Of a stretch of DNA of 64,000 bases, positions 18,962 through 46,832 are shown piece by piece. Location of the stretch: positions 124,001 through 188,000 of the forward strand of contig CACAXR010000001.1 of NCBI GenBank assembly GCA_902536555.1, read 5' to 3'. The translations under genes were made by a program, and so were the position numbers. Source of the stretch: an uncultured Prochlorococcus sp. GTDB lineage: Bacteria; Cyanobacteriota; Cyanobacteriia; PCC-6307; Cyanobiaceae. Position 1 is the stretch's first letter; each line of letters starts with the position of its first letter. The notes under the pieces were generated by a model. The model did not search any database and had not been told where the DNA came from. It worked only from the letters and a program-made list of their open reading frames with translations.

Positions 18962-19945
18962 TAAAATAATTATGTTTGTAAATTAATGTAACATAAATAT
19001 TAATTTATGTAAACCAAGGCTCAAACGATTTGCCTATTAGCGTTTACGGGCAAAAATGTGACATTACTGTTTAAAGTTCAATTTACAGGTCTTATTTTAT
19101 TTAATAAAATCGTTTTTATTATCAAATTTGCAGGTAAGCCACTTAAAATAAGCATTTATACTCACAGTGAGTAAATTTACTTAGTAGAATAGATATAGCA
19201 TTTAGGAAGTGCTTTATTTGGTTAAATTAGAAAATCTGAATTAACTAGGTCGTCATGAGCTTGCCGGTGGGATACTTGCAAGCTCTTTCAATTTTGAAAG
19301 CTGGCAAATAATTTAAGCAATAAAAAAATCTTTAACCTAGTTAATAAAACATAAGAAAAAATACTAATGTCAAAATTTTATTTATTTGCTAGATAAAAAA
19401 TAGACTAAAAGAAAATTATGTCTTTGGATTTTATCCTAATTCCTTTTTGTATTATTATTATCCTTTTTCTCTTAAATCGAGAAAACAGAATCTACCACAA
19501 AGATCAAAAAGCTAAATAATTTCAAATATTTAGAAAAGCATTTAAATACGTGTAATAAAATATTATCCTCTGTTAATGAGAAATTTTTAAACTTACTTGT
19601 TTAAGATTAATTGCAATTTTTTGAGAGTTTATGAGCGAAACTTTTCTAAATTTTTTTCAAGATTAATTTATCCCAATACAATTTTGAATTATTAATTTGA
19701 TCTAATTTATTTTGGCAATGTATGCACTTGCATTTATTTAATAAATTCTTATTTTTCATTAATTTTCTCCTTTTTTTTAAAAAAACAAATTATTAGTCTT
19801 GCTGCAAGCATTTATAAATTTTTTTTTATTAATTTTTAATTTTAAAAGAGGAAGTTTGGTTTTTTAATTACAAATTCATATTGGTCTCTAAATCATTGAT
19901 ATTTTATAATGCAGGCAAAGATAGTACTAATTAAATAGATTCCTT

Positions 19946-24975: not shown

Positions 24976-25212
24976 TTTAAGTAAATAGATCCTCTATAAG
25001 TAAGCTTTATAATCTTTTCTTCTTGTTTTCTACAATATACGAATGACTTTCCATTGAAATACATGTTTACCATGATGCAGCTCCTGAAATTGCTCAAGTC
25101 CCCGTCCTATGGCTTAAGTCGTACTGCGGTCTATCAGATGGTAGATCGGACGATTTTGTAGTATTAACTACAATCTATTAATAAAGTATTTATACTTAGA
25201 TGTCAACAATTA
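24976..25212 (+). repeat. ~235 bp dispersed repeat copy 1, candidate structured RNA
   Basis: Near-identical blocks AGATCCTCTATAAGTAAGCTTTAT, CAAGTCCCCGTCCTATGGCTT, CGTACTGCGGTCTATC, GTAGATCGGACGATTT with 40785..41016. Confidence 0.75.
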
Positions 25213-33626: not shown

Positions 33627-35525
33627 TTATTTATTAATACTCAAAATCTTTAAATAAACATCCTCAAGATTTTCAGTAAAAGTTTTTTGATCAAAAAACT
33701 TACTGATTTTCTTTTGTTTTTTTATTTTATTTTTTAATTTATTTAACTTTTCATAACTTAAAGAGTAAAAAATAACTTTCTCGATATATTCATCAACAGA
33801 TTCACAAATCAGTTCATCTAAATCTAAGCAATGTAAAATACTTCCTCCAACCCTAGATGCAAAACTCTTACCAGGCAGAGTAATAAAAGGTAGTTCTGAC
33901 CAAATACATTCAACTAAAGTTGTATGACCATTATAAAAAAATGTATCCAAGAAAATATCTGCTGAAGAATATCTAGAAAGATGTTCAACATAGGAATCTA
34001 CATTTTTGGCAAATATGATTCTATCTTCATCGATATTCTTTGCTTTAAAAAATGAAATTAAATTCTGTTTTGCAATATTATTTGGATTTTTTAACCACAA
34101 AAATGTATTTTCAGATTTATGAAGAATTTTTGCCCAAATATCAACAACTTCCACTGATAATTTAGAAGTTTGATGAAACGCAGCAAGTAAACACGATCCT
34201 TCTGGTAAAGATTGGATACTTGAATCTTTTTTTGATTTACTGTATTCATATTTAATAGAGTTAATGAAACAATTTGGCATTTGAATAATTTTTTCGGTGT
34301 AATATTTATAATCTTTTTTGGGGATTACAAATTCATCAGCTATTAGAAAGTCAATATTTTTAGCTCCCGTTGTGCCAGGAAAACCTAAGTAATTTATCTG
34401 CTTGGGAGCAATACGCTCATTAAAAATTTTTGACATATTTTTTGATGTATAACCCATTAAATCAACAGCAATATCTAAATTATCTGACCTAATTTTATTT
34501 ACTGCATCACTTATAGACATTTTTTGAATACATATGAATGAGTTAAAATGTTTCTTTAGTATATTTGTTACCTCATCTTCATTTGAATCCAAAGAATATC
34601 CAAAAATTTCATAATTTGATTTATCATGATTACTCAAGATAGTTTCTATTATTTTTGATACAGGATGATCATTAAAATCAGCTGATATATAGCCAATTCT
34701 TATTTTTTTATTATTTTTAGCTTTAAGATTATTTTTAGGATTTCCATGTTTTTTTTTATAAAAGTTTAGAGCTCTAACATATTGTTTTTTTGGGGAAGCA
34801 TCTAAATAAAAAAAAGTTAACAAGTGAAAGATATCTTCTCCATCTAATAACCCAACTTTATCAATAAAACTCCTTAGACTAAGAATCGCTTCAGTATTAA
34901 ATGTTTCTAGATAAATCTCTATTAGTCCAATCTTAGGAGCGATATAATTGACATCAATTTTTAATGCTTTTTTATAGTTTATTTCTGCATCAATATACTT
35001 CTTTTCTCTTGCCAAGATGTTACCTATATTATTAAAAATAATTGGTAAGTTTTCAATTTCTGCGGCTTTAATATAATGTTTTAAGGCTTCCTTATGATTA
35101 CCTATTTTTGCTAAAATATTACCTAAATTTATATAAGCACCAACCAATCCGGGATTATATTTTAAAGATAATTCAAGGTATTTTATAGAATTATTTATTT
35201 CACCTGCATTAAATAAAAATCTACCTATGTCAACATATGCTTCTCCATAATTTTTTTTCAATTTAATTGCTTTTTTTAAATAATCAAATGCTTCTCGTTT
35301 TCTTCCAAGTTTTTCGTATATAGCTGATAATCTATGAAAAGTTAAATGATCATATTTACCCTTAGCAATAAGAAACTTATAAATTCTCTCAGCATCAAAT
35401 AATTTACCCTCTCTCGCTAAATTAATTGCTTTTTTTGATTGAGACGAGAATTCATTATCAATTATTAATTTTTTCTTTTGAATATCCTCACTATTTACCC
35501 CAAACCCTTTGTTTTTTGATGTCAT
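33627..35525 (-). CDS. TPR protein with SPINDLY/OGT-type glycosyltransferase domain
   Basis: Multiple TPR units; RIGYISADFNDHPVS, QINYLGFPGTTGA, ADIFLDTFFYNGHTTLVECIW. Confidence 0.9.
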   Translation of the reverse strand: MTSKNKGFGVNSEDIQKKKLIIDNEFSSQSKKAINLAREGKLFDAERIYKFLIAKGKYDHLTFHRLSAIYEKLGRKREAFDYLKKAIKLKKNYGEAYVDIGRFLFNAGEINNSIKYLELSLKYNPGLVGAYINLGNILAKIGNHKEALKHYIKAAEIENLPIIFNNIGNILAREKKYIDAEINYKKALKIDVNYIAPKIGLIEIYLETFNTEAILSLRSFIDKVGLLDGEDIFHLLTFFYLDASPKKQYVRALNFYKKKHGNPKNNLKAKNNKKIRIGYISADFNDHPVSKIIETILSNHDKSNYEIFGYSLDSNEDEVTNILKKHFNSFICIQKMSISDAVNKIRSDNLDIAVDLMGYTSKNMSKIFNERIAPKQINYLGFPGTTGAKNIDFLIADEFVIPKKDYKYYTEKIIQMPNCFINSIKYEYSKSKKDSSIQSLPEGSCLLAAFHQTSKLSVEVVDIWAKILHKSENTFLWLKNPNNIAKQNLISFFKAKNIDEDRIIFAKNVDSYVEHLSRYSSADIFLDTFFYNGHTTLVECIWSELPFITLPGKSFASRVGGSILHCLDLDELICESVDEYIEKVIFYSLSYEKLNKLKNKIKKQKKISKFFDQKTFTENLEDVYLKILSINK

Positions 35526-35810: not shown

Positions 35811-36033
35811 GTAAAACTTAATTACTTCTAATTTTAGATCGAATGTCAATTATTACAAAAATAAAAAGTCTTTATTAAGTAATCTATTTCTATATTTTCC
35901 CCAAACTTTCTTCGACTAATATTGTTCGATAAACTAAATAAAACGCTTTGGATTTGGCTGACTTACGAAAAAAGTTAACAAAATGCCATTCCCGTACCAT
36001 AAAAGCAGCACTATTTCCCGCAAATTATAGACT

Positions 36034-36078
36034 ATGACAAAAATTAATTACTGGCTAATGAAAAGTGAGCCAGCTTGA
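36034..36078 (+). pseudogene. EVE gene 5'-end remnant A (left end of array)
   Basis: MTKINYWLMKSEPA*; matches intact MTEINYWLMKSEP at 46374. Confidence 0.85.
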
Positions 36079-36111
36079 TATAACTAGGTTTCTCAAATTT
36101 TCTTAAATTCT

Positions 36112-36133
36112 ATTCTAGCAAAATTCTAGCAAA
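36112..36133 (+). repeat. element 1 left arm repeat
   Basis: ATTCTAGCAAA x2, perfect tandem; same sequence at 39519. Confidence 0.85.
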
Positions 36134-36184
36134 ACTAATAAATATAAAGCATCCATTGAGGTAAAGATTTAGGATAATTTGTGA

Positions 36185-36230
36185 TTGACAGTCGATCTAA
36201 ACTTAGAGGGATAAAACCCTCTTTTTTTTG
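36185..36230 (+). promoter_or_regulatory. leader element copy L3
   Basis: TTGACAGTCGATCTAAACTTA-GAGGG-ATAAAA-CCCTC-T8-G-ATG. Confidence 0.75.
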
Positions 36231-36419
36231 ATGAAAAACAAATTTAAAAGATCAGCTTTTTTTGATATGTCTGATAACCTTTTCTATCGAATATCATTAA
36301 TAGGATTTTTAGTTGTTTTTAGCTCAATGGTATTTTTCCTAACGAAATATAGAGAAAAAAAAGTTAATAATATAAGCCAGATTTCCATAACTGAAAAAAT
36401 TAAATTTTTAAAGCATTAA
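36231..36419 (+). CDS. 62 aa TM protein, paralog of 40007..40180
   Basis: MKNKFKRSAFFDMSDNLFYRISLIGFLVVFSSMVFFLTKYREKK... Confidence 0.65.
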   Translation: MKNKFKRSAFFDMSDNLFYRISLIGFLVVFSSMVFFLTKYREKKVNNISQISITEKIKFLKH

Positions 36420-36775
36420 TGCAAAGATTTATAATTTCACCGTTATTTGCTTTATCTAGGTTTTTTATAAATATTTACGGAATATTTTTAAAGTTTTTTC
36501 TTCGATTAAATGGTGGTTATTGGTCAAGAATTGGTTTAGCCGAAAATATAACAGAGGAAAGAATAAAAAAAAGAAGATTATATATCCTGCCTTTTTATAT
36601 TCTTCTAGCTTTATTGTTTGGATTACTATCTGCTCTATATTGGTATTTTGTTATTCTCCATCTGCCACTTTCAATAGAAAGATATTTAAGTCCATTGAAT
36701 AACAATATTGCTTTAATAATTGCTTTTGCTACTTTCTTTGGTTGGCTTTATATTCTTTGTAAAACAAACAAATAA
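36419..36775 (+). CDS. 118 aa two-TM protein, paralog of 40195..40548
   Basis: TAATG overlap with upstream ORF; close paralog in element 2. Confidence 0.75.
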   Translation: MQRFIISPLFALSRFFINIYGIFLKFFLRLNGGYWSRIGLAENITEERIKKRRLYILPFYILLALLFGLLSALYWYFVILHLPLSIERYLSPLNNNIALIIAFATFFGWLYILCKTNK

Positions 36776-37161
36776 AATGCTTTCTGAGAGATGATGTGGT
36801 CCGAGGATTAAAGATTTAATTAATCATGATTAAATCATTCTTAAGGATTCATGCAAAATATTTGTGACCGATTAATTTATATATACGACAGTTCTGGTGA
36901 TCGACTCGACCAAGGTTGACCAACTAGATCTTCACTAATCCATGGTCTGCAATACCAAGGTAAATTAACTTATCTAACCTTTACGGAAAGAAAGTTAAAT
37001 GATCAGAAATTAAACTTTCGGGATTAATTCTGAACTATCTTAAAAATAAAGTCGTTTGTAAAGCATGAAGAAGTGAGTAATCACTTTTACATTCAAAACT
37101 AATTTCTAAGAAAATTCTTAATCTGATTATTAAATAGATCTCCTTTCTGTCGTCACCATTT

Positions 37162-37190
37162 AAAAAAGACCTGTAAAAGGGTCTTTTTTT
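37162..37190 (+). terminator. Rho-independent terminator
   Basis: AAAAAAGACC-TGTAAAA-GGGTCTTTTTTT. Confidence 0.7.
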
Positions 37191-37377
37191 ATGTCTTAAA
37201 TTTTATTTATTTACTTTTAATCCACAAATAATTAAATATTTTTATCTCGCTCTTTCGCGATCAGTTAATGCTTTTTCAAAAGTAAAAAAGAAAGTACAAA
37301 TGCTATTCAATGCAACCAACAAAAGAACTACTGATCTTCCATGTTGATTTAATTGAAGTGATCTTTGAGTCATACTT

Positions 37378-37560
37378 TTAATAATCATCATTGTAATCGG
37401 ATGGACTACCAGTTAAAGAACAAACAACTGATTCCTCTTTTTTCATTTCTTTTATTTCCATTATTGGTCTGCCCATTTTCTTAAGAACATCTATATCTTC
37501 TTTAGTCTGACAGCGAGCAATTATGTTTCCTTTTTGATCAAAGCAACTGTAGTAAGTCAT
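37378..37560 (-). CDS. 60 aa hypothetical protein
   Basis: MTYYSCFDQKGNIIARCQTKEDIDVLKKMGRPIMEIKEMKKEESVVCSLTGSPSDYNDDY. Confidence 0.55.
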   Translation of the reverse strand: MTYYSCFDQKGNIIARCQTKEDIDVLKKMGRPIMEIKEMKKEESVVCSLTGSPSDYNDDY

Positions 37561-37683
37561 TTTATTAAATGCAATTTAAAGTTCATGGTTGATTTCAGTT
37601 GCAGCAACGCAACCGACTCATGATAACCATATTTCTAATTTAGGTCAGCCATAGATTTAAATGGCTAAAAAAACATACCTCTT

Positions 37684-37763
37684 TCCGTACCTAAATGTTC
37701 CTCAAACCGCACACATTAGATACGCAGTGTTTTAGTCAAATCAATTAGAACAAAGAGGTAGTT
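37684..37763 (+). promoter_or_regulatory. conserved leader M1 copy b
   Basis: TCCGTAcctaaaTGTTCCTCaAACCGCACACAT ... AATTAGAACAaAGagGTAGT. Confidence 0.65.
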
Positions 37764-37787
37764 AAACGAATATACAAAGGAGAATTT

Positions 37788-37925
37788 ATGAGTGGAGATT
37801 TTGAGACTCTTGAAATTAATCAACCAAAAATTAAATATTTAAAACCAGAAGACAATACAAAATGGTTAGACAAATTAATTAATAATATTGAGGACATGAA
37901 GAAGAAGATATCAAAAGATTCTTAG
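37788..37925 (+). CDS. 45 aa hypothetical protein
   Basis: MSGDFETLEINQPKIKYLKPEDNTKWLDKLINNIEDMKKKISKDS; upstream AAAGGAG. Confidence 0.5.
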   Translation: MSGDFETLEINQPKIKYLKPEDNTKWLDKLINNIEDMKKKISKDS

Positions 37926-38060
37926 AAATTTAAGAAAGAAACTTTTTTATTTGATCTTTAGTTTGAATGAAAAGAAATTCAAAAAAGAATTTAAATTTTG
38001 TATTTAAGGTAACCGCTTTTTTGTGAGCATTATTCAGAATAAGAGTCCGACTATTTTTTT

Positions 38061-38204
38061 ATGCAAAAAAATTTAGATGAAAATTCTTATGAAAAAAGAA
38101 TTGAAAATATAGAAAAAGGAAAATCTTATTTAAAAAGTAATGGATTTTTTAAATCAAAATCTAATCTATTCGAAGAAATACAAAGATTTATCTATAAAAG
38201 GTAA
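38061..38204 (+). CDS. 47 aa hypothetical protein
   Basis: MQKNLDENSYEKRIENIEKGKSYLKSNGFFKSKSNLFEEIQRFIYKR. Confidence 0.4.
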   Translation: MQKNLDENSYEKRIENIEKGKSYLKSNGFFKSKSNLFEEIQRFIYKR

Positions 38205-38322
38205 TTTAAAAAATATTTTTTACTTTTGATTAATTAAATCTCTCCATAAGCAAGCCATCACATAAAAGAAAGAAAGACTTGAAAAGGTAAAGAGAAAAAA
38301 AGAATGGGTCAATTTTCTATAA

Positions 38323-38427
38323 CTAAATTAGACCAAATAATCCTGCGGTAAAACCAACAGCCGAAAAGAATGTGAACTCAATCAAATCTCTTGGGGCAGA
38401 GTTCATAAATAAACCGATTTGAGTCAT
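38323..38427 (-). CDS. 34 aa microprotein
   Basis: MTQIGLFMNSAPRDLIEFTFFSAVGFTAGLFGLI. Confidence 0.4.
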   Translation of the reverse strand: MTQIGLFMNSAPRDLIEFTFFSAVGFTAGLFGLI

Positions 38428-38431
38428 GATT

Positions 38432-38626
38432 TTATGACTTGAGAGAATCTTTTAAATCAAACTTTTCAGCTTTTTCAATTTGACACTCAGTATCATCTTC
38501 AGCACATTTGATTTCAGCTTTTTTGTTCATGTGGCTACTACAACCGCCTGCTATAACTGGTAAACCGGTCGTAGCCGTAAAACCAGTTAAACATACAAAA
38601 GCTATATAAGGAAAAAGTCTTTTCAT
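38432..38626 (-). CDS. 64 aa secreted/lipoprotein-like hypothetical
   Basis: Hydrophobic N-terminus; CSSHMNKKAEIKCAEDDTECQIEKAEKF. Confidence 0.5.
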   Translation of the reverse strand: MKRLFPYIAFVCLTGFTATTGLPVIAGGCSSHMNKKAEIKCAEDDTECQIEKAEKFDLKDSLKS

Positions 38627-38827
38627 TTAATTGTTACTTTATGTAAACTTATTATGTTATATAAAAAGTTCAAGTGTGAGTAGCTGACAACTCGCGTGCA
38701 CCCTATACCAATCATCTAAAGTGATTTAGCAAGCCTATGAGTTTTATATTTATCTGAGTATTTTTACTTATATCTTGAGTTGAAGACTTTTAATAATTAA
38801 TGTTTGTTTTGGGTTTATATATAAGTC

Positions 38828-38983
38828 ATGGATAAAGAGCATTTAATTGATTTAATATCTAATAGCATTATTTCTGAGATTAAAGATCTCGAAATTAATG
38901 AGGAAAAATTGATTGCAAATAATTATTTAAATAATCTGAATTTAAATCAGCTTAGAATAATTTCTAAAGAATTTATTTTGTAA
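38828..38983 (+). CDS. 51 aa hypothetical protein, paralog of 12265..12420
   Basis: MDKEHLIDLISNSIISEIKDLEINEEKLIANNYLNNLNLNQLRIISKEFIL. Confidence 0.65.
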   Translation: MDKEHLIDLISNSIISEIKDLEINEEKLIANNYLNNLNLNQLRIISKEFIL

Positions 38984-39061
38984 TTTTTATTGAATATTTA
39001 TTTAAATAAATGAGATTTTCTTTACTATCATTTGAATTTTAATAAGTTAATACCTTTTAAT

Positions 39062-39247
39062 ATGAATGATTCAGAAGAATTTAAACCTAGCCTTAAACAA
39101 ATAAATGAGGATATCAGACCTACATGGGAAGATATCAAAAAACAATCAGAAGTTTTAGTTAACAAACTTGGTTGCCCTAGATCATTTGTAGGAGGAATGC
39201 TTCATGCAATAGCAAGCGACTTCTCTGATATGAAAACTTGGGAATAA
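39062..39247 (+). CDS. 61 aa hypothetical protein
   Basis: ATG inside ORF 39032..39247. Confidence 0.55.
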   Translation: MNDSEEFKPSLKQINEDIRPTWEDIKKQSEVLVNKLGCPRSFVGGMLHAIASDFSDMKTWE

Positions 39248-39397
39248 ATGAAAAACTTATTACTTAAACCACTTTTCAAACTATTCAAAAAAAGCACTTT
39301 CCTCTTATCACTAAATCAAAACTCGTGCCCTGTTTTAGATGCTGAAGACATAAAAAAGCAAGAACAGAAAGAAGCTATTGAAAGGTTGTACCCGTAA
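39248..39397 (+). CDS. 49 aa hypothetical protein
   Basis: MKNLLLKPLFKLFKKSTFLLSLNQNSCPVLDAEDIKKQEQKEAIERLYP; directly abuts preceding stop. Confidence 0.45.
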   Translation: MKNLLLKPLFKLFKKSTFLLSLNQNSCPVLDAEDIKKQEQKEAIERLYP

Positions 39398-39469
39398 ACT
39401 TTTAACAGAAATGTATCAGATCATATATACGATGCAGCACGGTCCTATGCACCCCCATGCCACCCATTA

Positions 39470-39503
39470 CTTTCCTAAATTGTGACTTTGATGGATAATA
39501 AAC
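39470..39503 (+). repeat. element right-end motif copy 1
   Basis: CTTTCCTAAATtgtgACTTTGATGGATAATAAA, also at 42249, 43656, 46267. Confidence 0.75.
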
Positions 39504-39518
39504 ATATAAAAAAATCTG

Positions 39519-39538
39519 ATTCTAGCAAAATTCTAGCA
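39519..39538 (+). repeat. element 1 right arm repeat
   Basis: ATTCTAGCAAA + ATTCTAGCA. Confidence 0.85.
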
Positions 39539-39563
39539 GATAAATTCCTTCAATTCCCTTGAT

Positions 39564-39608
39564 ATGAATGAAGAAAATTTTTGGCTAATGAAAAGTGAGC
39601 GCGTCTAG
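39564..39608 (+). pseudogene. EVE gene 5'-end remnant B
   Basis: MNEENFWLMKSERV*. Confidence 0.8.
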
Positions 39609-39642
39609 CTATTACTGGGATTTCAGGGAATCGTAATTTTTT

Positions 39643-39664
39643 ACTCAAACTTTACTCAAACTTT
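39643..39664 (+). repeat. element 2 left arm repeat
   Basis: ACTCAAACTTT x2. Confidence 0.85.
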
Positions 39665-39961
39665 TAAAGACTAAAAAACTAACCGATATTGAGTTCGGTT
39701 CGAAGTAAGAAAACCCTGAAACTATTAATCTCTTTTGATGAATAGTCTTCAAATGACAAAGACACAAAGCACAAAAACTACATTAAGTAGCAAGCTAAGT
39801 GTCTTGGAAGTAATCTGCATTAATTAAAAAGGTTTTTGTACTCGTGTGTAGGAGTGCGGGGTTAACCTTGAAACCGCTAGGCTCAAGTCCTTACGAAAAG
39901 GACAAGTCCTTAGACCACTTATACCTAAGAAACACACTCATCACAAGTAAAAATAACTTGA

Positions 39962-40006
39962 TTGACAGTCGATCTAAACTTAGAGGGATAAAACCCTCTT
40001 TTTTTG
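39962..40006 (+). promoter_or_regulatory. leader element copy L4
   Basis: TTGACAGTCGATCTAAACTTA-GAGGG-ATAAAA-CCCTC-T7-G-ATG. Confidence 0.75.
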
Positions 40007-40180
40007 ATGAGAAACAAATTTAAAAGATCAGCTTTTTTTGATATGTCTGATGACCTTTTCTATCGAATATCATTAATAGGATTTTTAGTTGTTTTTAGCT
40101 CAATGGTATTTTTCCTAACGAAATATAGAGAAAAAAAAGTTAATAATATAAGCCAGATTTCCATAACTGAACAAATTTAA
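40007..40180 (+). CDS. 57 aa TM protein, shortened paralog of 36231..36419
   Basis: MRNKFKRSAFFDMSDDLFYRISLIGFLVVFSSMVFFLTKYREKKVNNISQISITEQI. Confidence 0.65.
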   Translation: MRNKFKRSAFFDMSDDLFYRISLIGFLVVFSSMVFFLTKYREKKVNNISQISITEQI

Positions 40181-40194
40181 TTTTTAAAGCAGTA

Positions 40195-40548
40195 ATGCAA
40201 AGATTTATAATTTCCCCGTTATTTGCTTTATCTAGATTTTTTATAAATACTTACGGAATATTTTTAAAGTTTTTTCTCCAATTAAATGGTGGTTATTGGT
40301 CAAGAATTGGTTTAACCGAAAATATTACAGAGGAAAGAATTAAAAAAAGAAGATTATATATCTTACCTTTTTATATTCTTCTGGCTTTATTGTTTGGATT
40401 ACTATCTGCTCTTTATTGGTATTTGGTGATTCTATATGTACCACTTTTGATAGAAAGATATTTAAGTCCATTGAATAACAGTATTGCTTTAATAATTGCT
40501 TTCGCTACTTTCTTTAGCTGGCTTTATATTCTTTGTAAAACAAAATAA
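40195..40548 (+). CDS. 117 aa two-TM protein, paralog of 36419..36775
   Basis: Near-identical protein sequence. Confidence 0.75.
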   Translation: MQRFIISPLFALSRFFINTYGIFLKFFLQLNGGYWSRIGLTENITEERIKKRRLYILPFYILLALLFGLLSALYWYLVILYVPLLIERYLSPLNNSIALIIAFATFFSWLYILCKTK

Positions 40549-40584
40549 ACAAAGTATTATCTATCTGCAAAAGCAAAAGATACT

Positions 40585-40719
40585 TTATTTAAAATCTTCT
40601 TTTGTTTGATTATCATTTTCTCTTACCCAATAGTCCTCATATTTTAAATTTCTTTTTTGATAATCTAATGCGTTCATGTTCTTATCGAGTATGGCAAAAG
40701 GAGAATTAGTAAATTTCAT
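40585..40719 (-). CDS. 44 aa protein, possible truncated Cys-tail family relative
   Basis: MKFTNSPFAILDKNMNALDYQKRNLKYEDYWVRENDNQTKEDFK; YEDYW.RE shared with FEDYWKRE of 41031 ORF. Confidence 0.5.
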   Translation of the reverse strand: MKFTNSPFAILDKNMNALDYQKRNLKYEDYWVRENDNQTKEDFK

Positions 40720-40784
40720 GGCATAACACCTCTAAAAAAAATAGTTTATTGAATATTTAATAGATATGAGATTTTATTTATCTC

Positions 40785-41016
40785 AAGTAACTAGATCCTC
40801 TATAAGTAAGCTTTATTGTTTTCTCTTCTTGGCTCTTGCAATATACGAAAGATTTGCCGTTAAAATACATCTTTACCATTATGCAGCTCCTGGTCTTGAT
40901 CAAGTCCCCGTCCTATGGCTTGATTCGTACTGCGGTCTATCTAATAGTAGATCGGACGATTTGGTAGCATTTACTACACTTTATTTATAGAGTATTTATA
41001 CTCAGTTGTCAACCCT
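40785..41016 (+). repeat. ~230 bp dispersed repeat copy 2, candidate structured RNA
   Basis: Matches 24976..25212; two shared hairpins, one with an A-U to G-C compensatory pair. Confidence 0.75.
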
Positions 41017-41030
41017 TAAGATTAAAATTC

Positions 41031-41213
41031 TCAGTCGCAATAGACTAAACAATGCTGATTAGTTGGATGTTCTCTACATTCCCTCTTCCAATAGTCTTCA
41101 AATAAATGGTTATCTCTATCAAGATTTCTTGTTATTTCTTCCATTCTGTTTCCAGCATAATTAAATGCTTTTAGGTATCTTGGAAGGATTGTGAATTGAT
41201 TGAATAGTTTCAT
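41031..41213 (-). CDS. 60 aa Cys-tail family protein (C-X8-C-X3-C)
   Basis: ...NHLFEDYWKRECREHPTNQHCLVYCD; upstream AGGAGG. Confidence 0.65.
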   Translation of the reverse strand: MKLFNQFTILPRYLKAFNYAGNRMEEITRNLDRDNHLFEDYWKRECREHPTNQHCLVYCD

Positions 41214-41270
41214 TTAGACCTCCTAGATCTATACTTATATTGTCCTCCTATAGCCTTGAAATTTATAGGT

Positions 41271-41297
41271 CGGTTTGAGGAACTATTAGGTACGGGA
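41271..41297 (-). promoter_or_regulatory. conserved leader M1 copy c (first block only)
   Basis: Minus strand TCCCGTACCTAATAGTTCCTCAAACCG. Confidence 0.6.
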
Positions 41298-41664
41298 AGA
41301 GGTATATATTTTGAATCAAAAAATACTAAAGCAGTCCTAAAATTAATACATGGTTGTCATGAGGCAGTTGCAGGGATACAACTGAAGCCAACCATAAATT
41401 ATTAGAGATCAATTCAAGATTTAAAACACACTCATTATTTAAAAAGAAATCTTCTCCACTTTAGATAAAACTAAAATAAATCAGGATTTGAAAACAATGT
41501 AATCATAGATACCAACAGGTATTTAGCTAATTGATTATATATTTAACACACGAGTTAACCCGTTCCAATTTGTTGACTCTGAGGTTTTACCGTTGATTCC
41601 TTATCTTCTGAAAGTTGTTCCTTGCAGCTTTAGATTAAAAAACGGTCTTTATTTAATCTAAACC

Positions 41665-41802
41665 ATGCAAAAGAAAATCGTAAAAAAATATGCTGAATTA
41701 ATGCATCAGGCGCAACAAGCTACTGGAAGAAAAGAAGCAGTTGGACTAATACATAAAGCAGCAAAGTTAAAAACTAAATTTGATAATTACGAGATGATGT
41801 GA
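41665..41802 (+). CDS. 45 aa hypothetical basic protein
   Basis: MQKKIVKKYAELMHQAQQATGRKEAVGLIHKAAKLKTKFDNYEMM. Confidence 0.55.
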   Translation: MQKKIVKKYAELMHQAQQATGRKEAVGLIHKAAKLKTKFDNYEMM

Positions 41803-41832
41803 TCATCTACAAAGCAATTTTCCCAAATAAGA

Positions 41833-42198
41833 ATGTCATTATTAAATAAATTCTCGATTAAAGATATCATTCTCTCAAGCAAAGAGGCATATCAAAAGGA
41901 ACTCAAGAACAACGGTGTGGGTTCACAAATAGGAAGGTCATTATTTAATAAATTCTCGATTAAAGATATCATTCTCTCAAGCAAAGAGGCATATCAAAAA
42001 GAACTCAAGAACAACGGTGTGGGTTCACAAATAGGTAAGTCATTATTTAATAAATTCTCGATTAAAGATATCATTCTCTCAAGCAAAGAGGCATATCAAA
42101 AAGAACTCAAGAACAACGGTGTGGGTTCACAAATAGGAAGGTCATTATTTAATAAATTCTCGATTAAAGATTTTTCCTTCAATATTTCCAACAGATAA
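41833..42198 (+). CDS. tandem-repeat protein, 3.5 x 34 aa
   Basis: SL(L/F)NKFSIKDIILSSKEAYQKELKNNGVGSQIG(R/K) repeated; near-perfect 102-bp DNA repeats. Confidence 0.7.
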   Translation: MSLLNKFSIKDIILSSKEAYQKELKNNGVGSQIGRSLFNKFSIKDIILSSKEAYQKELKNNGVGSQIGKSLFNKFSIKDIILSSKEAYQKELKNNGVGSQIGRSLFNKFSIKDFSFNISNR

Positions 42199-42248
42199 GC
42201 GTAATTTATAAAGGGGTACCGTCATGATATATAGAGGAAAGGGGTACA

Positions 42249-42281
42249 CTTTCCTAAATAGAAACTTTGATGGATAATAAA
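42249..42281 (+). repeat. element right-end motif copy 2
   Basis: CTTTCCTAAATAGAAACTTTGATGGATAATAAA. Confidence 0.75.
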
Positions 42282-42298
42282 TTCATATTCAAAGAAGT

Positions 42299-42318
42299 TA
42301 CCCAAACTTTACTCAAAC
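42299..42318 (+). repeat. element 2 right arm repeat
   Basis: TACCCAAACTT + TACTCAAAC. Confidence 0.8.
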
Positions 42319-42340
42319 CCTATATATTCGCCGAGATCCT

Positions 42341-42391
42341 ATGGTACAACAGGAACCTAGCTACTGGCTAATGAAAAGTGAGCGCGTCTAG
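42341..42391 (+). pseudogene. EVE gene 5'-end remnant C
   Basis: MVQQEPSYWLMKSERV*. Confidence 0.8.
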
Positions 42392-42425
42392 CTATTACTG
42401 GGATCTCAAGGAATCGTAATTTTCT

Positions 42426-42447
42426 ATTCACACTTTATTCACACTTT
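42426..42447 (+). repeat. element 3 left arm repeat
   Basis: ATTCACACTTT x2. Confidence 0.85.
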
Positions 42448-42557
42448 TTATTAATTAAAACTCCATCAAGAAAAGCCTAAAAAGTTAAATCTGGTACTGA
42501 CAAATATTTAAAAAATAAATACTATATATCTAAATAATTATCTAGGAATTTAAATTC

Positions 42558-42986
42558 ATGATTAAGAATTTATTCATAGCAATAGCTTTTGCTTTGATGC
42601 TCATCAACCCAAATATTTCTATAGCTGCCGAATCGCCTGTAGATGTACAAGAAGTCTTTGTAGGTTCTGAAACTATGGATGGTGATGCTCTTAAATATCC
42701 AAAAGGAAAAGCAGAAATAAGATTACAAAGAGTCGAATTAGCTGAGGGAGGGATAGTCCCGCTTCACTCTCATCCAATTCCATTATTAGGTAATGTTGAG
42801 CAAGGTACAATTGTTGTAAAAAGACAAGGTATGGAAGATCTTACCTATACAGCAGGGGATACATTTATAGTTGGTCCAAAGACACCAAAACATACAATGG
42901 GTAATGCAAAAACCGATAATGCAATAGTTTGGTTCGCAGCTATTGGAGCAAAAGATGTCCCAATTCTAATCCCTGCAGAAGGATAA
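42558..42986 (+). CDS. cupin-domain protein with signal peptide
   Basis: MIKNLFIAIAFALMLINPNISIAAE; VPLHSHPIPLLGNVEQGTIVV. Confidence 0.8.
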   Translation: MIKNLFIAIAFALMLINPNISIAAESPVDVQEVFVGSETMDGDALKYPKGKAEIRLQRVELAEGGIVPLHSHPIPLLGNVEQGTIVVKRQGMEDLTYTAGDTFIVGPKTPKHTMGNAKTDNAIVWFAAIGAKDVPILIPAEG

Positions 42987-43014
42987 ATTTTATCCATAAA
43001 TCAATTATTTTTGA

Positions 43015-43049
43015 TTGACAGTCGATCTAACTTCAAAGTCAATAAAGTA
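43015..43049 (+). promoter_or_regulatory. leader element copy L5, lacks the G/C hairpin
   Basis: TTGACAGTCGATCTAACTTCAAAGTCAATAAAGTAATG. Confidence 0.6.
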
Positions 43050-43196
43050 ATGGCAATTTCACACTATAGAAAGCAAAAGATAATGCTATTAGCAAGACTC
43101 AATCTTGGTTTAGCTAGTGAAGATAAAGAAGAAATTGATCTTTATAATCACTATCAAAAAAATATTTATTCAGAACAAAATCACCAGCAGCAATAA
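43050..43196 (+). CDS. 48 aa hypothetical protein
   Basis: MAISHYRKQKIMLLARLNLGLASEDKEEIDLYNHYQKNIYSEQNHQQQ; leader L5 placement favours ATG 43050 over TTG 43011. Confidence 0.55.
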   Translation: MAISHYRKQKIMLLARLNLGLASEDKEEIDLYNHYQKNIYSEQNHQQQ

Positions 43197-43208
43197 AAAA
43201 ATATCTTA

Positions 43209-43250
43209 TTGACAGTCGATCTAAAATAAGGGGCATTAGCTCCTTTTTTA
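43209..43250 (+). promoter_or_regulatory. leader element copy L6
   Basis: TTGACAGTCGATCTAAAATA-AGGGGC-ATTA-GCTCCT-TTTTT-AATG. Confidence 0.7.
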
Positions 43251-43634
43251 ATGTCAAATACTAAAGCCATAGAAGATTTAATTAATGGTTATGCAACCAG
43301 TGAAGATTCTTCTTTTCTAATACCAAACGTAACTGAGGATTTTTTAGCTGTAAGACCAAGTGGAAATCCAATATCTGCTAAGGGATTAGTGGGAATGTTT
43401 GATAGTAAAGACTTAGTTGCAGAATCATCAGAACTAATCAAAACCCACAAAATTGAAATTTACGGTGAAATAGCTTACGCAGTTTTCACTTTAAATGAAA
43501 TCTTCAGTTATAAAGGAAATCAAAATAAAGATCTTTCAACTTACACGTGTATTTTTAAAAATGTAAATGGTACTTGGAAATATTCTTGGATGCAAAGATC
43601 ACAAGGAACTACTGATATGAAAACTTGGGAATAA
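43251..43634 (+). CDS. DUF3804/NTF2-like small protein, paralog of 24105..24491
   Basis: Shared RPSGNPI..KG and WMQRS.G..D...W. Confidence 0.75.
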   Translation: MSNTKAIEDLINGYATSEDSSFLIPNVTEDFLAVRPSGNPISAKGLVGMFDSKDLVAESSELIKTHKIEIYGEIAYAVFTLNEIFSYKGNQNKDLSTYTCIFKNVNGTWKYSWMQRSQGTTDMKTWE

Positions 43635-43655
43635 TTGAAACGCTTACTACTTTCT

Positions 43656-43687
43656 CTTTCCTAAATAGGAACTTTGATGGATAATAA
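43656..43687 (+). repeat. element right-end motif copy 3
   Basis: CTTTCCTAAATAGGAACTTTGATGGATAATAA. Confidence 0.75.
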
Positions 43688-43706
43688 ATTTATATTGAAA
43701 GAAGTT

Positions 43707-43725
43707 ATTCACACTTTATTCAAAC
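43707..43725 (+). repeat. element 3 right arm repeat
   Basis: ATTCACACTTT + ATTCAAAC. Confidence 0.8.
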
Positions 43726-43746
43726 CTATATTTTCGCCGAGATCCC

Positions 43747-43806
43747 ATGGTACAACAGGAACCTAGCTACTGGCTAATGAAGTGGGTACTTGATGCTAAA
43801 AACTAA
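43747..43806 (+). pseudogene. EVE gene 5'-end remnant D
   Basis: MVQQEPSYWLMKWVLDAKN*; identical N-terminus to remnant C. Confidence 0.8.
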
Positions 43807-44522
43807 AGCCTTCCAAATCCCTTAATTCTTTTTTCTGTTTTATATCCTGCTTGTACGAATTGAGTATTATCAGTCCCGACATCATAAAGAGTATAATTTT
43901 TTCCTGCCCCAATACCAATAACAGCTTTTTGAGGAACTTTCTGCTCTTTCTTACGATTTCCATTTAAATCTTCTACTTCAGAATTAACAATCCCCTCTGT
44001 CAATTCCAAGTGAAACTGTTGTTTACTTCTTGCAGTAAATAATCTGTTTACCTGAAGACGTGTAAGTCTATCAAGGAGTGTCAGTGGCGGCGTATCTAGT
44101 GTTAAATTTTCGCCAACATCTTTTGAGCTTCCGTGAATCAAACCACAATCAAGTTCAACAAATCCAAATTGAAGTGCTGCTATCCAATCAAGAAATGATT
44201 TGTCTACAGCATTCGTAAGAGACTTAACTACTTCTTCACCCTTATTTATTCTCAAAGCTTCAGCTCTTTGATCACCACGGTAACCACTTTCCAAGAGGAT
44301 TTGTTCTTCCCACCAACCATATATGCACCATGGTTGTAAATCATTACTTTTTGGATTAATTAACCTATGGAGAAGCCTATTACAGTTTTTTTCAGGACCT
44401 ATCATATCCCCCAAAACAAAAAGAGTTATATTACCAGGAGTTTTTTTTAAGTCTTTTTGAATAAGTTCATAAGTATCTAGATCCCCTTTAAGACCACTTA
44501 CGAGTGCCCAGCGTTCTATCAT
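43803..44522 (-). CDS. metallophosphoesterase-like protein
   Basis: VLGDMIGPEKN; VELDCGLIHGSSKDVGE. Confidence 0.75.
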   Translation of the reverse strand: MIERWALVSGLKGDLDTYELIQKDLKKTPGNITLFVLGDMIGPEKNCNRLLHRLINPKSNDLQPWCIYGWWEEQILLESGYRGDQRAEALRINKGEEVVKSLTNAVDKSFLDWIAALQFGFVELDCGLIHGSSKDVGENLTLDTPPLTLLDRLTRLQVNRLFTARSKQQFHLELTEGIVNSEVEDLNGNRKKEQKVPQKAVIGIGAGKNYTLYDVGTDNTQFVQAGYKTEKRIKGFGRL

Positions 44523-45334
44523 CTTTCACAAACATGAGATGCATCTTCAGCTTGTTCTGCAAATTCGAATCCATTTTTTAAACGCCATGCAAAAATCGGA
44601 GGAAGACCGGCATCTATTATTGCTTTACAAGTAAGTTCAATATCATATTCCACTTCTCTAATTTTTACTTCATTAGTGACATCGTTATAAACAACATAAG
44701 TAGCTTTAGTTCCTCCATGTCTTGGCTCTCCAACTGAACCTGCATTTACTATTCTTCGCATCGGCAATTGAATTTCTTTTTCTTGAGTATCTTTGGGAAC
44801 AGCATTTTTGATCTTTACAGCAATTGAACCATCTGCTAATTCGCGAATATAAGGTTGGTGAGTATGACCACAAAATAGAATCTCTGCTCTGGCATTTTCA
44901 ACTCTCTCAAGAGCTGCGAATGCATCCATATCGGGTAGAAGATATTCATGTTGACTATTAGGACTACCATGAACAAAAAGACACTTATCTTTACGTATTG
45001 AGTAGGGTAGATTAGCTAGATAATACTTATTTTCTGTAGTTAATTTATCTGTAGTCCATTGATGAGCAAAATGACCTCTTTTTTCAGCAAGCTGAGAAGG
45101 ATAACTACAATCGCAAGCATCTAATCCATCAACAACATCTTCGTCCCAACATCCCTGACAAGTAGGAATTTCTTTATCTCTTATTAACTCAATAACCTCA
45201 TTAGGTTGAGGACCATAACCCACTAGATCTCCAAGACAGGTAATATTTGTAATTCCTTGGAGTTCAATATCTTTTAAGACAGCCTCTACTGCAGGTAGAT
45301 TTGCATGTAAACATGAGATGACAGCTTGATTCAT
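44519..45334 (-). CDS. metallophosphoesterase family protein
   Basis: VISCLHANLPAVEAVL, CLGDLVGYGPQPNEV, LFVHGSPN, FCGHTHQPY, NAGSVGEPR. Confidence 0.92.
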   Translation of the reverse strand: MNQAVISCLHANLPAVEAVLKDIELQGITNITCLGDLVGYGPQPNEVIELIRDKEIPTCQGCWDEDVVDGLDACDCSYPSQLAEKRGHFAHQWTTDKLTTENKYYLANLPYSIRKDKCLFVHGSPNSQHEYLLPDMDAFAALERVENARAEILFCGHTHQPYIRELADGSIAVKIKNAVPKDTQEKEIQLPMRRIVNAGSVGEPRHGGTKATYVVYNDVTNEVKIREVEYDIELTCKAIIDAGLPPIFAWRLKNGFEFAEQAEDASHVCER

Positions 45335-45341
45335 TTTTTAG

Positions 45342-46124
45342 TTAACGGCGAGCAGTTTGTAATTGTGAATTTCTAAGTGAAGTTTGATGATGATCTAGTA
45401 CAGCATCATTAAGAAGGCAATTATGAATCGTTGCTTTTATTGACTCGAAGTTTAAATTTTTCCCTTGTATAACAATTTCAGAACATCTTTCTGGTCTTCC
45501 ATTAAGAGGGGCAACTTGGTTTAATGTTTGATATTGAGATCCTTGCTGACTGACTATCCAATTAAACAAGATGTAACGCCCATCAGGTAAGTTCATTAAT
45601 GCTTTTGCTCTATATACATCCCCATAAGCACCATTAACTAATTCAAACCAAAAAGTATTCAAGCTTGCAGGATCCCAAATATGCTTTTGAAGATCAAGGC
45701 TTATTGATTCAATTTCTCTAAAATCTAAAGTATCTTTAATTGATAATTCTGGATCTCTACCAAAATGAAGATATCTATTTGGCTGGAGATTATATTTTTC
45801 AAGTTCATTAATAATTCTCAGATCAACTCCATTAATACCCTGAGATTTAGGTGTAAAAAATTGTGGAAATTCAATAATAATTAAAATGTTTTCTTTATCT
45901 TTCTCTGATATTGAGTTTGAAATAGATAAGTCTAATAAGTTAGGAATTTGATCTTTCAAAAAAGCAAAATCAATTTTTGAATTTATTGCTTGCTCTAAAT
46001 TAATTTCAGAATATCCTCCTAGACGTAAGTAACCACAATTACCAGAATAATTCTTAAAAGTATTTAGTATCCAATTTGTCTTACCGCATCCTGGCGAACC
46101 TGATATTAAACAGACTTGACTCAT
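45342..46124 (-). CDS. CobW/COG0523-like G3E GTPase without an obvious CXCC motif
   Basis: SGSPGCGKTNWIL P-loop; VYRAKALMNLPDGRYILFNWIVSQQ. Confidence 0.75.
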   Translation of the reverse strand: MSQVCLISGSPGCGKTNWILNTFKNYSGNCGYLRLGGYSEINLEQAINSKIDFAFLKDQIPNLLDLSISNSISEKDKENILIIIEFPQFFTPKSQGINGVDLRIINELEKYNLQPNRYLHFGRDPELSIKDTLDFREIESISLDLQKHIWDPASLNTFWFELVNGAYGDVYRAKALMNLPDGRYILFNWIVSQQGSQYQTLNQVAPLNGRPERCSEIVIQGKNLNFESIKATIHNCLLNDAVLDHHQTSLRNSQLQTARR

Positions 46125-46165
46125 AAAAAAATACTACCTAATGTATAAAATTTACACCAATATGA

Positions 46166-46180
46166 AAATGAAAATCATTT
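46166..46180. promoter_or_regulatory. Fur/Zur-like operator
   Basis: Perfect dyad AAATGA-AAA-TCATTT inside GAAAATGAAAATCATTTCT, 42 bp upstream of the GTPase start. Confidence 0.5.
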
Positions 46181-46266
46181 CTGTTTTCGATTTTAAATAT
46201 TTATTTTTTGATTTAAGTGATAAAAACATTAATATTTAGAGAATTAATTACTCCATACCAACCATC

Positions 46267-46298
46267 ACTTTCCTAAATAGATAATTTGATGGATAATT
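46267..46298 (+). repeat. element right-end motif copy 4
   Basis: CTTTCCTAAATAGATAATTTGATGGATAATTA. Confidence 0.65.
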
Positions 46299-46327
46299 AA
46301 CCTAGATTTGAACGTTTTTAATATTCT

Positions 46328-46349
46328 GTTCACACACCGTTCACACATT
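46328..46349 (+). repeat. element 4 right arm repeat
   Basis: GTTCACACACC + GTTCACACATT. Confidence 0.75.
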
Positions 46350-46373
46350 GTAATTTTCTTCTAAATTATTGAT

Positions 46374-46832
46374 ATGACTGAAATAAACTACTGGCTAATG
46401 AAAAGTGAGCCTGATGCATACAGCATAGATTCTTTAAAAAATGATGGAGTTACTTTATGGGATGGCATAAGAAATTATCAGGCTCGGAATTTCATGAGAA
46501 ATATGGAAAAAGGAGATATAGTTTTTTTCTATCATTCAAACTGTAAACCTCCAGGTATTGTTGGACTTATGGAAGTTGTAGATCTAAATATTGTTGATCC
46601 AACTCAGTTTGACAAAAATTCAAAGTATTATGATCCAAAGTCTAACCCTGATAATCCTAAATGGGATTGCGTAAAAGTAAAATACATAGCTAATTCAAAA
46701 AAAATACTAAGTTTGCCTGAATTAAAAATTTTATTTAGTGAGGATGAGTTATTAGTTGTAAAAAAAGGAAATAGGTTATCTATACTACCTGTCAGAAGTG
46801 ATATTGCAAAACTACTACTAGAAAAAATATAA
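46374..46832 (+). CDS. EVE domain-containing protein (intact)
   Basis: YWLMKSEPDAYSIDSL...LWDGIRNYQARNFMRNMEKGDIVFFYHSN. Confidence 0.92.
   Translation: MTEINYWLMKSEPDAYSIDSLKNDGVTLWDGIRNYQARNFMRNMEKGDIVFFYHSNCKPPGIVGLMEVVDLNIVDPTQFDKNSKYYDPKSNPDNPKWDCVKVKYIANSKKILSLPELKILFSEDELLVVKKGNRLSILPVRSDIAKLLLEKI

Follow-up and report, generated by a model that had tools for sequence, protein, structure and literature searches.

Core-bounded elements stacked at the 5′ end of an EVE-domain gene in Prochlorococcus and their likely site-specific integration

Integration that restores the 5′ end of a target gene is already known for SXT/R391 integrative and conjugative elements at prfC and for SGI1-like islands at dusA (PMC2791158), and a tandem pair of elements at dusA has also been reported. 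Here we describe a 64-kb stretch of a Prochlorococcus-type genome that is 58% complete (contig CACAXR010000001.1; the whole stretch is termed the window, and its numbering is used for all positions), in which four consecutive segments, E1 to E4, lie upstream of a gene for an EVE-domain protein. We consider it very likely, with a probability of roughly 0.92 judged from sequence comparison, that this locus is a stack of elements, each integrated site-specifically at the same site in the 5′ end of EVE by divergent tyrosine recombinases. SXT/R391 and SGI1-like elements likewise employ tyrosine recombinases, but the target here is EVE and not prfC, trmE, dusA or yicC, and the EVE-element recombinase is only remotely similar to PF00589. 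In addition, the EVE elements are smaller (mostly 1–12 kb across genomes), many lack a recombinase, many are decayed, they form arrays of up to seven, and no conjugation genes were seen among their annotated cargo.

Prochlorococcus tycheposons, which are linked to tRNA genes (PMC10872708), are likewise cargo-carrying integrative elements with tyrosine recombinases, and a divergent integrase described by Flamholz et al. belongs to Prochlorococcus and Synechococcus islands located upstream of tRNA-Phe or tRNA-Cys (PMC10187409). Compared by description only, the EVE elements differ from the former in targeting a protein-coding gene and from the latter, also a divergent tyrosine recombinase, in that the recombinase follows an EVE core; the 64-kb window contains no tRNA gene. 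Composite staphylococcal cassette chromosome (SCC) islands at rlmH comprise tandem elements bounded by attachment (att) repeats of one gene, some of them recombinase-less, and integrons line up gene cassettes in one direction, with new ones joining at one end. However, SCC islands use serine recombinases and a 3′-end target, whereas EVE elements use the tyrosine type, a 5′ end and arm repeats. Similarly, the integron has a platform integrase beside its site, whereas the EVE locus is without one, its recombinases residing inside elements and being absent from most arrays; unlike in integrons, each EVE element has its own site composed of a core and direct-repeat arms, and the autonomous ones also encode a recombinase of their own. 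No description of EVE-targeted elements was found in the literature searched, the original tycheposon description lying outside the comparison, and the target, the recombinase subfamily and the stacking of cassettes appear to be new, set apart from tycheposons by description only. Prochlorococcus is the ocean's most abundant photosynthetic bacterium and combines a very small genome with a vast pool of flexible genes; by what route cargo moves in and out is an open question, to which the tRNA-linked tycheposons are the answer described so far.

The array is delineated by the core TGGCTAATGAA, which is found at 36052, 39582, 42365, 43771 and 46392, always on the plus strand, with no sixth copy at up to one mismatch elsewhere in the 64-kb window. 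The last copy resides within the intact EVE gene, the presumed target (46374–46832, plus strand; PF01878, E 6.6e-53), where the core (46392–46402) codes for Trp-Leu-Met-Lys (TGG CTA ATG AA). The other four reside within EVE 5′ remnants: core 1 (36052–36062) in the remnant spanning 36034–36071, and cores 2 (39582–39592), 3 (42365–42375) and 4 (43771–43781) in remnants beginning at 39564, 42341 and 43747, respectively. The initial annotation had placed the four remnants and the intact gene exactly here and had read their N-terminal peptides correctly, and its segment sizes of ~3.5, 2.8, 1.4 and 2.6 kb measure 3530, 2783, 1406 and 2621 bp between cores. The window's own genome contains four copies of the 19-mer TGGCTAATGAAAAGTGAGC, every one of them in this array, compared with 0 for a reversed-pattern control. 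The elements E1 (36063–39581), E2 (39593–42364), E3 (42376–43770) and E4 (43782–46391, ending at the EVE core) lie between successive cores on the plus strand. Upstream of the first remnant, an older element's left-type end of the ATACCAGCA class, with degenerate repeats ATTCCCGTACCATAAAAGC at 35988–36006 followed by ATTATAGACTATGAC, spans 35988–36033 (plus strand); intact versions of this end are found upstream of EVE in L037, L058, L062 and L064 (L numbers designate compared sequences). This degenerate end shows what is evidently a leftward continuation of the array beyond 36034.

Across genomes, homology blocks are bounded by the core at both ends and segments follow one another in varying order, placing the junctions exactly at the core, as the initial annotation had supposed. 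Homologs of E1 with 96–98% identity are present in L036, L051, L054, L055, L070 and L071, core-bounded homologs of E2 with 96–97.5% identity in L039, L044, L056 and L063, and E4 is 99.1–99.8% identical from core to core in L039, L050, L055 and L069. The inner ends of these E4 copies are 97–100% identical, but identity just left of the left core is 49–55%, and the EVE genes that they border share 85–86%. What follows E1 changes at the core: EVE itself in L070 and L071, E4 in L054 and L069, E2 in L055 and the window. In L068, the end of E4 coincides exactly with a core, but a 13.2-kb stretch holding other elements separates it from EVE. These segment orders suggest that newcomers enter beside EVE and displace older elements upstream. 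As is characteristic of tyrosine-recombinase elements, the same short att core is present at both element ends and in the target gene. Moreover, the EVE frame is open with an element-specific N-terminus at all sampled loci, the pattern associated with 5′-end integration that restores the open reading frame.

Of 400 genomes examined from the family, 365 have an EVE homolog. The labels Prochlorococcus and Synechococcus for compared genomes are our own assignment from named relatives, genome size and EVE identity; the named genomes that share the locus structure are Prochlorococcus single-cell genomes. When ~15 kb upstream of EVE was surveyed in 40 unselected same-genus genomes, additional junctions (one or more) were present in 29, and 39 had either an arm repeat or the left-end motif immediately at EVE, the fortieth having a partly lost one. 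Strains differing in segment number, for which the initial annotation had proposed to look, do exist, with 0 to 6 extra segments in this interval. In 14 genomes, the left-end motif occurs mostly at the EVE locus, reaching up to ~30 kb upstream. Element ends were also observed at EVE in 10/10 sampled genomes taken as other Prochlorococcus genera, most with further junctions, but junctions or arm repeats were found at EVE in 0/10 sampled loci of genomes taken as Synechococcus, where the Trp-Leu-Met-Lys codons are conserved. The elements at EVE, which nearly all sampled Prochlorococcus genomes have and the sampled putative Synechococcus genomes lack, would make this locus a docking site for cargo genes across the genus and a second route of cargo movement, at a protein-coding gene. 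The insertion order can be read here, the boundaries are exact and the recombinase family is identified; array length, cassette order and circles would allow the gain and loss of genes to be tested directly in single cells.

Directly after a core, some arrays encode a protein of 528–544 amino acids. A search of 267 same-genus genomes yielded seven full-length recombinases of this kind, one split copy and many fragments, and profile-based searching of 400 genomes from the family added recombinases of ~50–63% identity in genomes taken as other Prochlorococcus genera. In most recombinases with readable upstream sequence, the core lies 94–119 bp ahead of the original match start, with arm repeats in between; in L106 it lies 77 bp ahead of the gene start, and in the most divergent members, L108 and L125, it carries one or two mismatches and lies 109 and 156 bp before. 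In the ~14 cases of recombinase and EVE on one contig, some of which involve partial or frameshifted genes, the recombinase lies upstream of EVE and on the same strand. Profiles assign the family to the tyrosine recombinases, with PF00589 matching 11/12 members (best 2e-7, a remote similarity) and the integrase profile phrog_1 matching 9/12 (best 2.4e-18), and alignment A3 shows conservation of the candidate Tyr, Lys and second Arg, with HxxR present as YxxR in a region where the structure model is poor. The AlphaFold model, built from 8 sequences, is usable for the N-domain, predicted with fair confidence to consist of beta strands and a helix, and for part of the next domain, but is poor for the catalytic part; a PDB profile search with the recombinase gave no real match. 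A tyrosine recombinase is thus present beside the core in other Prochlorococcus genomes, at the boundary where the initial annotation suggested seeking one, and this linkage, together with core-bounded homology and changing segment order, supports the repeated site-specific insertion that it had put forward.

Distant homologs (33–45% identity; L126 and L128–L137), in genomes taken as Synechococcus, are without the EVE core, and no tRNA is found within ~10 kb of nine of ten of them, a single tRNA-Glu being near the remaining one. Some of these homologs have similar tandem repeats ahead of the gene. Most genomes of the genus also encode a separate PF00589 protein of ~389 amino acids, apparently a core gene.

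Read in the direction of EVE, an element comprises a core, a right end, tandem repeats, cargo, a left end, a second set of tandem repeats, a start codon, a few EVE codons and the next core. The right end often reads AAGTGAGC GCGTCTAGCTATTACTGGGATCTCAAGGAATCGTAATTTT; two ~8-bp repeats in tandem, spaced 10–12 bp, come next, and the conserved left end CTTTCCTAAAT...TTTGATGGATAATAA (family D3, also given as CTTTCCTAAATAG..ACTTTGATGGATAATAA) is followed by the second repeat pair. Perfect tandem repeats are present in 56/75 right arms, as against 0.9% of random 60-mers. The arm repeats at the two ends of one element resemble each other, with a mean similarity of 11.5 compared with 8.1 when shuffled, a value reached by 0/20,000 shuffles, although this set of 75 elements mixes homologous and independent ones and the non-redundant version is the safer figure: among 54 non-redundant elements, z is 6.9 and 23 are at or above threshold, compared with 9.6 expected. 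Furthermore, a comparison of 21 recombinases shows that the N-terminal 72 residues vary with the arm class when the C-terminal half is controlled for (partial Mantel r 0.83, p 0.0002). L107, judged from its sequence, is a natural chimera, its C-terminal half being 88% like L101 but its N-domain and CCACAC-type repeats closest to L121/L123; for this N-domain comparison, the pieces of the frameshifted L107 and L110 were joined with no base restored. The family offers a natural series for a recombinase that changes arm specificity while its target is kept.

Within the window, E1 carries ATTCTAGC arm repeats at both ends, E2 ACTCAAAC, E3 ATTCACAC and E4 GTTCACAC on the EVE side only, all on the plus strand. 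In E1, the right-end repeats ATTCTAGCAAAATTCTAGC (36112–36130) are of the same class as the left-end repeats ATTCTAGCAAAATTCTAGC (39519–39537), which follow the conserved left-end motif CTTTCCTAAATTGTGACTTTGATGGATAATAAA (39470–39502). The corresponding right-end repeats, left-end motif and left-end repeats are TTTACTCAAACTTTACTCAAAC at 39640–39661, 42249–42281 and TTACCCAAACTTTACTCAAAC at 42298–42318 in E2, and TATTCACACTTTATTCACAC at 42425–42444, 43656–43688 and TTATTCACACTTTATTCAAAC at 43705–43725 in E3, whereas E4 has the motif at 46268–46300 and left-end repeats GTTCACACACCGTTCACACA at 46328–46347; the motif is of family D3 in all four. These conserved left ends and the arm repeats flanking the cores, like the degenerate end left of 36034 and a recombinase relic in E2, go beyond what was initially annotated.

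We suggest that each element would enter through one event of conservative site-specific recombination at the Trp-Leu-Met-Lys codons near the EVE start. An autonomous element would carry arm repeats right after the core and then the divergent tyrosine recombinase of ~520–540 amino acids, with a conserved catalytic half and a putative N-terminal arm-binding domain that varies with the repeat class. Integration would split EVE after about seven codons, whereupon fresh upstream sequence, the start codon and the initial codons would come from the element's other end, leaving EVE intact and renewing the site for the next insertion. Older elements would thereby be shifted upstream as newcomers settle next to EVE, and derivatives without a recombinase would probably be moved in trans. 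We infer the catalytic reaction, excision as circles, a promoter supplied by the element and a route between cells from these arrangements; a promoter scan showed no excess over shuffles, though the left-end motif is conserved, and EVE expression may be reset by the latest-arrived element. A viral route of transfer found no support, no element being found in viral contigs (IMG/VR, phage records).

The statement of the initial annotation that no recombinase is present holds for an intact gene in the window but not for E2, where the 3′-end relic of a tyrosine recombinase gene persists directly after the arm repeats (39676–39738, plus strand; encoding KLTDIEFGSK*ENPETINLF*; tblastn E 0.007–0.03 with the closest recombinase queries). 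The same scar is located 83 bp past the core in L039, L044, L045, L055, L056, L063 and L069. Given this scar, E2 is most plausibly what an internal deletion left of an autonomous element, and E1, E3 and E4 are probably similar deletion derivatives or were cross-mobilised. The scar in E2 and its relatives, as well as the truncated recombinase copies in L065 and L067 and the frameshifted ones in L107 and L110, would also be accounted for if all elements had once been self-mobile and had lost their own recombinase after insertion, with no movement in trans. We regard this as a serious but rather unlikely alternative, since the identical E2 scar recurs in many genomes and segment orders, and since E4, which has no recombinase trace, is near-identical in four genomes whose EVE differs by ~15%, suggesting recent movement without its own enzyme and supporting mobilisation in trans. 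A broader proposal, to which we lean slightly less than to its negation, is that EVE is a docking platform throughout Prochlorococcus, at which the recombinases share a catalytic domain and core but swap the arm-binding domain together with the arms, and that cassettes without a recombinase but with matching arms are moved in trans; if true, many parallel specificities would coexist at a single site, in an integron-like system built on arm-site recognition.

An integron-like arrangement in which one resident chromosomal recombinase inserts all cassettes, for example the near-universal ~389-residue PF00589 protein, would fit the occurrence of that protein in most genomes of the genus and the growth of recombinase-less arrays beside EVE. 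However, the arm repeats are of many classes and autonomous elements bring their own recombinase with matching arms, making this highly improbable; the ~389-residue integrase was set aside as a platform enzyme because autonomous elements encode their own. Least probable of all, and rejected on the core-exact breakpoints, is duplication of the EVE 5′ region with RecA exchange of segments between repeated ends and no site-specific recombinase, for although element ends have ~100 bp of partly similar sequence in common and E1 and E2 share duplicated cargo (95% identity over 300 bp), the breakpoints coincide with the 11-bp core, beyond which lies unrelated sequence or 85–87% identical EVE, a dedicated recombinase stands beside the core in many genomes, and arm repeats pair by element.

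Several observations nevertheless weigh against interpreting the locus as a stack of site-specific insertions. Half of the elements are without matching arms at both ends, and no arm repeat was found at the right end of E4. The first catalytic Arg is replaced by Ser in the whole EVE-site clade (L101, L106, L114–L123), the proteins being full length, whereas the distant homolog L128 keeps Arg at this position. No intact recombinase of the family was found in the window's own genome, which is 58% complete. The core, the conserved right-end motif and relatives of the recombinase gave nothing in IMG/VR, and one element end region gave nothing in phage records.

The cargo is varied. E1 contains small open reading frames, among them one for a 118-residue membrane-like protein; E2 contains a glutamine-II riboswitch and a repeat protein; E3 encodes cupin and DUF3804 proteins; and E4 carries genes for a metallophosphoesterase (calcineurin-like) and a CobW_C protein on the minus strand. 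In L064, the cargo of an autonomous element is a set of type I restriction-modification genes (HsdM, HsdS and HsdR-like). The glutamine-II riboswitch at 40899–40961 (minus strand) lies inside E2 and may therefore travel as cargo; a second is located at 25093–25155 (minus strand). The 121-residue open reading frame of E2 (41833–42198, plus strand) consists of near-identical 34-residue repeats encoded by a 102-bp tandem repeat. Inverted-repeat arms of 128 nucleotides, 74% complementary, are located at 37582–37709 in E1 and 41271–41398 in E2. The 16-bp repeat TTGACAGTCGATCTAA is present on the plus strand at 36184–36199, 39961–39976, 43014–43029 and 43208–43223, with a one-mismatch copy at 35834–35849 (minus strand), and often precedes a terminator-like hairpin. 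In complete relatives it occurs in several places and both orientations, some within EVE arrays; because it is also found in other parts of genomes in both orientations, it is not element-specific and was rejected as a second recombination site. On its left, the array is adjoined by a TPR protein with a glycosyltransferase family 41 domain (33627–35525, minus strand), and the window also contains the cyanobacterial small RNA Yfr20 at 19196–19284 (plus strand).

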